This document shows positions 45,226 through 45,903 of a stretch of 64,000 bases of DNA, piece by piece (position 1 is the first letter of the stretch; each line of letters begins with the position of its first letter). A program made the translations under genes and the position numbers. Source of the DNA: Pseudomonadota bacterium (GTDB lineage: Bacteria > Pseudomonadota > Gammaproteobacteria > Burkholderiales > JAJZUU01); the NCBI GenBank assembly GCA_021848325.1, contig JAJZUU010000001.1, forward strand, positions 1 to 64,000. The letters run 5' to 3'. The notes under the pieces are model-generated. The model saw only the letters and a list, made by a program, of their open reading frames with translations, was not told the DNA's origin and ran no database searches.

Positions 45226-45246
45226 TTATTCACAAACTTATCCACA
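45226..45246 (+). promoter_or_regulatory. Tandem DnaA-box-like sequences TTATTCACA (45226-45234) and TTATCCACA (45238-45246)
   Basis: The second is the perfect consensus R-box, the first has one mismatch; adjacent AT-rich tract and three TTGAGG repeats at 45283-45307. Confidence 0.55.
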
Positions 45247-45526
45247 GCTTTTGTGGAACGTTGAAGAAAAACCAGTCCGCTGTTGAGGTTATTGAGGATT
45301 GTTGAGGGAAACATGAGCAGACTCCGCTAAGTTGATCCGTTACGCCCCGGATCAGGAACAGGAGGCGCCCGTCCCGCCGGCCAGACATGGCGGCTTGACC
45401 GCCGTTTTCTCGCGCACGGCGCTTGTGGCGCGTTGTCGCAAGGGGTGGGAACGCAACGCTACTGTTGCCACGCCGCACCCTGGGCGCTATTTAAGGCGGC
45501 CCTTGAATTCCTTGGTGTCTTCATTT

Positions 45527-45575
45527 CCGCGAAGGCGGGAATCTGGCCGGTTTTACCGGGCTCCCGCCTTCGCGG
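45527..45575. repeat. REP-like inverted repeat, 14-bp perfect stem CCGCGAAGGCGGGA / TCCCGCCTTCGCGG
   Basis: Direct reading of the inverted repeat, with an inner CCGG-TTTTA-CCGG hairpin. Confidence 0.8.
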
Positions 45576-45610
45576 GAGCGACGGAATGATGGGGCCGGGT
45601 TACTGAACTA

Positions 45611-45781
45611 CCACCTGCTAAAGCAGGTGGGTTAGCGCAGCTAGGCGCAGAGGACTAAAGTCCTCTTGCTCGCGCCCAGCTAAACGCGCAACACCAGCAA
45701 GGTGGAACGAGCTTCGGTTTGTTCCACGCTTGCTGAATTTGCAAGGCTAAAGCTGACCGGCTAAAGCCGGTGGTTTAAACC
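45611..45781. other. Array of four consecutive hairpins (45611-45630, 45640-45682, 45693-45735, 45756-45771); candidate structured RNA or non-autonomous IS200/IS605-like element
   Basis: CCACCTGC-TAAA-GCAGGTGG; AGCTAGGCGC..GAGGAC-TAAA-GTCCTC..GCGCCCAGCT; CAGCAAGGTGGAAC..GTTCCACGCTTGCTG; ACCGGC-TAAA-GCCGGT followed by GGTTTAAACC. Confidence 0.6.
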
Positions 45782-45903
45782 TTGCGATGGACAATTAATA
45801 ACATGGTGGATCCGCCGCCGTTGCGCCGTTCCCGGGTAGCCATTCCCGGCATGGCGAGAGCAGGGGATCGGGACACCACTTCGGCAACGGGAGATACACG
45901 AGT

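Follow-up and report, generated by a model that had tools for sequence, protein, structure and literature searches.

A hairpin array in a Burkholderiales genome as a probable non-autonomous IS200/IS605-type element with a covarying internal stem

The DNA analyzed here is a stretch of 64,000 nucleotides (the window) from contig JAJZUU010000001.1 of a Burkholderiales genome, in which an array of four hairpins makes up most of a 191-bp element (Table 1). The preliminary description of the array (45611-45781) covered most of this element and missed both of its termini. The four stems that it listed, including a nested pair, were all recovered at their places by folding and in the sequence, and the three TAAA loops are as stated for the plus strand. 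The TnpA-sense, and presumably transposed, strand of the element is the minus strand. In agreement with the remark that the array overlaps no credible ORF, the longest open frame within the element is 42 codons; there is no tnpA, and 191 bp are too short for a transposase. Terminal inverted repeats are absent, as the ends GTCCATCGCAAGG.. and ACTGAACTACC.. (the latter being the reverse complement of the other end) match at only 4 of 20 positions. On its right-end side the element interrupts a REP/BIME-like repeat, CCCGCCTTCGCGGGAGCGACGG...GGGCCGGGTTAATA, of which at least eight more copies are present in the genome (L136-L143). Just left of the element, an AT-richer intergenic stretch contains two DnaA-box-like 9-mers, TTATTCACA and TTATCCACA, 12 bp apart (45226-45246); a replication origin at this place was considered and rejected, with no clear GC-skew turn there.

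Table 1. The element, its parts and the adjoining repeat (positions in the window)
Feature	Position	Strand	Basis
Probable non-autonomous IS200/IS605-type element	45602-45792	-	7 full genome copies; ends of tnpA elements; 20-nt cleavage-to-hairpin spacing
Pentamer TAATT of the target/left cleavage site (TTAATT if extended by one base), external to the element	45793-45797	-	Comparison of copies and of left ends
Right-end cleavage sequence TTCAGT	45602-45607	-	Terminates every copy; next base varies
Right-end subterminal hairpin, 8 bp, CCACCTGC-TAAA-GCAGGTGG (minus-strand loop TTTA)	45611-45630	-	Fold; tnpA elements with homologous hairpin
Internal nested stem GCGC / AGCT / GGCGC / inner 7-bp hairpin AGAGGAC-TAAA-GTCCTCT (45649-45666)	45635-45689		Compensatory changes in 18 sequences
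Long stem, single bulge, TTCG loop	45696-45734		191-bp subfamily only; changed-base pairs in Ca. Nitrotoga BS
Left-end subterminal hairpin ACCGGC-TTTA-GCCGGT (plus strand ACCGGC-TAAA-GCCGGT), possibly within an outer stem (45742-45784) that can enclose it	45756-45771	-	Identical in intact tnpA elements
Left-end leader, including GGTTTAAACC (45772-45781)	45772-45792	-	20 nt from cleavage site to hairpin foot
REP/BIME-like repeat interrupted by the element	45520-45601		8 other copies uninterrupted

The array folds strongly. With single-stranded DNA parameters, 45611-45781 reached -50.5 kcal/mol; 200 dinucleotide shuffles gave -28.4 +/- 3.5 kcal/mol, and not one went as low (z -6.4). In raw fold energy the array is not alone in this GC-rich window, since at least equally good folds occur in 7 of 1064 sliding windows, and for this reason the fold alone was insufficient to settle the matter. 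The same count is what would speak for a chance cluster of hairpins in GC-rich intergenic DNA. Against such a cluster stand homologs across the order, covariation, multiple near-identical, sharp-edged copies and empty sites, all described below; the last two refute chance clustering, to which we assign virtually no probability.

Window positions 45601-45798, searched against the draft genome (3.0 Mb in 119 contigs), returned seven full-length copies at 99-100% identity and one more that is truncated where its contig stops. A solitary element, as had been proposed, is thus not what the genome contains. The flanks beyond the repeat edges differ among copies, except that the copies on contigs C94 and C97 have one flank in common. 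Read on the minus strand, full copies start after TTAATT (TTTATT in one copy) and end with TTCAGT followed by a variable base. Contigs C94 and C97 (L003, L006, L077) share the flanks of the element and the right-end flank of a tnpA element, in different order, owing either to an artefact of assembly or to rearrangement at the repeats.

Comparison with other genomes related the ends of the element to insertion sequences of the IS200 type. Over about 50 bp of the left end (query bases 146-198), identity with left ends from other genomes of the order reaches 98%, and several of the matching loci carry tnpA just inside. One intact tnpA of this kind lies in the same genome, on contig C94, within an element whose ends match; a search for a tnpA-bearing copy had been suggested together with one for further copies. 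Its product matches the NCBIfam IS200/IS605 transposase model (6.2e-50, above the cut-off) as well as solved Y1 transposases, including that of ISHp608. Between the 191-bp element and the tnpA elements, the left subterminal hairpin is identical and the right one similar. Correspondences at the right end comprise the terminal TNAGT, a CCAC..TTTA..GTGG hairpin and then a GGACTTT(C)AGTCC hairpin; the tnpA elements terminate in TTTAGT or TTGAGT, compared with TTCAGT in the 191-bp copies. In sequence, the right half of the element is unlike the right ends of the known tnpA elements, so that the exact helper for this end is a presumed one. Because tnpA is absent inside, we did not file the element as an autonomous IS, a member of which would have a Y1 transposase gene of its own.

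One of the 191-bp copies is immediately adjacent to the tnpA element of contig C94. The junction reads TTCAGT/ATCAATCATAAGGTTTAAAC/CACCGG, with the tnpA side starting ATCAATC.., and the tnpA element thus starts exactly 20 nt before the foot of its own hairpin. The same spacing at the copy in the window (TTAATT/GTCCATCGCAAGGTTTAAAC/CACCGG) defines the extent given in Table 1; indeed, 20 nt separate cleavage site and hairpin in both of the subfamilies described below and at the tnpA-element junction. The two elements on C94 (L003/L009, G000:C94:3370-4145) lie head to tail with zero bases between them, and from its sequence the join looks as if the copy's own TTCAGT end had been the target for the tnpA element.

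A plausible partner of the REP/BIME-like repeat is a RAYT-type protein (L010) of the same genome, which scores 82 bits against the NCBIfam REP-associated tyrosine transposase model (cut-off 80). Together with the contact between element and repeat, this protein would fit a REPIN or BIME mobilized by the genome's own RAYT. The ends of the element, however, match IS200-type tnpA elements and not the repeat, and the repeat is the target that the element interrupts, which makes a REPIN or BIME extremely unlikely.

Insertion in the IS200/IS605 family takes place 3' of a specific tetra- or pentanucleotide and creates no duplication, and TnpA binds a hairpin at each end (PMC7290912). We found the same type of insertion here. 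Motif extraction yielded 27 distinct left ends, of which 24 have T-N-A-N-T at the cleavage position (TTAATT in 15); at least two of the three that do not fit look indel-shifted. The repeat interrupted in the window runs uninterrupted at eight other loci as GGGCCGGGTTAATA (ACA / ...TTAACA in one); these empty sites are paralogous and leave an ambiguity of ~4 bases, and they are consistent with the lack of a target duplication. For a sister subfamily of 153 bp, orthologous empty sites were found in other Nitrosospira genomes for three loci of N. multiformis Nl12 (L093 vs L198, L101 vs L175-L177, and L091 vs L199). The insertions measure 153-154 bp, are free of duplications and lie 3' of the target site; L198 and L199 have TTATT there, the L101 relatives TTTTT. 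Alignments were less clean for another three comparisons (L178, L200 and L201), on which we place no reliance.

A pattern scan of a species-level genome collection gave 27 loci. By inspection, 25 are true relatives, and the remaining two (L090 and L099) are chance matches that were excluded from alignments. The relatives, whose absence elsewhere had been named in the preliminary description as grounds for giving up its reading, are spread across several genera: Nitrosospira, Nitrosomonas, Ca. Nitrotoga, Gallionella, and metagenome-assembled Nitrosomonadales and related bins. The 191-bp subfamily is found in the window's genome, Ca. Nitrotoga BS and Gallionella S40-4. Most other relatives belong to the ~153-bp subfamily, which occurs once in the window's genome, on contig C82. 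No TnpA was detected by tblastn within the fetched loci around the 27 pattern matches; Y1 transposases are encoded elsewhere in all 15 pattern-scan genomes searched, and several belong to the same clade and have the same hairpins. A shorter relative (L026, G153:C62, ~1500-1620) has the same left end joined to the long stem, terminates in TTAAGT and is devoid of the nested stem, an arrangement that suggests exchangeable internal modules. In another, decayed relative (L040, G144:C51, ~1500-1850) the right-end hairpin is split by a later hairpin-bearing insertion.

Lack of covariation had also been set down as a result that would count against the array, and compensatory changes were in fact found. 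We analyzed the right half in 18 distinct but related sequences, mostly exact-pattern finds with ~18 positions fixed, using a structure derived from one of them; 94.4% of cells were paired, compared with 24-35% when the structure was slid. Seven pairs are changed on both sides, giving 30 such cells vs 11.2 +/- 2.8 after shuffling. The nested stem is kept with compensatory changes in both non-autonomous subfamilies. Its outer stems are absent from tnpA elements, where the inner hairpin alone has a counterpart. For the long stem of the 191-bp form, pairing with changed bases was seen in Ca. Nitrotoga BS as well; in the other two sequences examined this stem is weaker. Wobble-type cells number 7 for plus-strand G-U and 15 for the minus strand; since they do not favor the plus strand, they give no indication of its being maintained as an RNA.

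The strong fold and the covariation of the right half are what a duplicated chromosomal gene for a structured RNA, rather than a transposon, would also show. Such a gene is very improbable given that the copies lie in unrelated flanks after a fixed pentamer, that their empty sites are precise, that their ends are common to tnpA elements, and that the wobble pairs favor neither strand.

A guide RNA of the omegaRNA/HEARO type, put forward in the preliminary description, would be a relic of a tnpB or iscB element, with a minus-strand transcript that ends at the right end and uses the flanking DNA as guide. The multi-hairpin right end of an IS200/IS605-type element and the compensatory changes agree with it. 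However, the recommended Rfam scan for HEARO and IS605-related families gave no family at the gathering threshold in the window and ten loci, and no match to the TnpB C-terminal domain was present in the genome. At 30 TnpB loci of the order, our structure model (R1) gave no credible match (best 15 bits, E 0.09), and the one match adjoining a TnpB gene (L159, 15 bits) is a single plain hairpin and not the nested stem. Related autonomous elements, moreover, carry only tnpA. From the Rfam and TnpB results we consider an omegaRNA very unlikely, and this part of the earlier proposal is not supported, although an RNA as an additional property of the element is conceivable.

At low threshold, the sole Rfam lead was psRNA14 (RF02351), near E = 0.1. 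Membership was rejected at 23.3 and 22.2 bits against a gathering cut-off of 60, and a search across 17 genomes gave sub-threshold matches only. The weak psRNA14 matches in Nitrosospira and Ca. Nitrotoga (L207 and L208) are IS200-type right-end hairpins. A literature search of partial coverage found no paper naming psRNA14.

We conclude that the array is a non-autonomous IS200/IS605-type element, or PATE, that has kept both ends of an IS200-type insertion sequence and lacks tnpA; from comparison of sequences, we put the probability of this reading at about 0.95. PATEs have no terminal inverted repeats, carry near-terminal palindromes, produce no target duplication and are too short for a transposase (PMC3119063). 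The present element lacks inverted repeats, has palindromes related to those of IS200/IS605, leaves the target unduplicated and is too short in the same way. The suggestion of an IS200/IS605-like element with its ORF missing was thus borne out by the tnpA-element ends, the many copies, the empty sites and the lack of target duplication.

We infer that the element is very probably mobilized in trans by an IS200/IS605 TnpA. In the mechanism that we propose, TnpA (HUH plus Tyr) would bind both subterminal hairpins in trans on minus-strand single-stranded DNA and cut after the target pentamer and after TTCAGT. A single-stranded circle would be excised and then inserted 3' of a new TTAATT-like site. 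The nested stem may be retained for helping the single-stranded element to fold, which is the weakest step of the scheme.

An origin from transposon ends only does not by itself explain a covarying internal stem. Tentatively, the nested stem, which is retained in several genera, could be a functional structure under selection in a transposon without genes, either as an RNA or as a fold of single-stranded DNA by which the passenger gains an edge on its helper (for instance, through better excision from the lagging-strand template); we regard this as possible and rather doubtful. Why a gene-less transposon retains such a stem is the question raised by these data.

The element is of an ordinary kind, recognized here as a family in these bacteria: a well-bounded, IS200-derived passenger of ammonia-, nitrite- and iron-oxidizing bacteria, for which a candidate helper, the target, empty sites and two subfamilies could all be identified from sequence. 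Our literature search, partial in its coverage, found no paper describing it in Nitrosospira, and a prior description (e.g., in ISfinder) is possible. More generally, an array of hairpins taken for a candidate RNA can turn out to be the ends of a transposon. The psRNA14 family may be another such case, a transposon end rather than an sRNA, judging from its 5' hairpin consensus, ACUcAAcAACcAccGgcUAAAgcCggUgGUUgUUgAGU, which resembles the IS200-type right end of this clade.

Among known systems, tnpA-only IS200-type insertion sequences (the nearest being those on G000:C94 and in G028, G383, G014 and Ca. Nitrotoga) share with the element a near-identical left end, the right-end hairpin, the GGACTTT(C)AGTCC hairpin, the T-N-A-G-T terminus and the type of target; the element differs from them in being without tnpA and in having extra internal stems. 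REPINs and BIMEs associated with RAYT (PMC3116915, PMC2817692) are likewise short, non-coding and hairpin-bearing, and are thought to be mobilized in trans by a Y1-type enzyme; the ends of our element are instead those of IS200-type TnpA elements, and its genome has a separate REP-like repeat and RAYT. The closest likeness is to the PATEs of Haloquadratum walsbyi (PMC3119063) and the PATE-like copy of Halanaerobium hydrogeniformans (PMC7290912), with which it has in common the absence of inverted repeats, near-terminal palindromes related to IS200/IS605, insertion without target duplication, a length that leaves no room for a transposase, homogeneous multi-copy families and strain-specific insertions. 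In contrast to these, the element described here is bacterial, occurring in Nitrosomonadales and relatives, and its right half contains a nested stem that has compensatory changes and is more than the fused terminus of the known tnpA elements.
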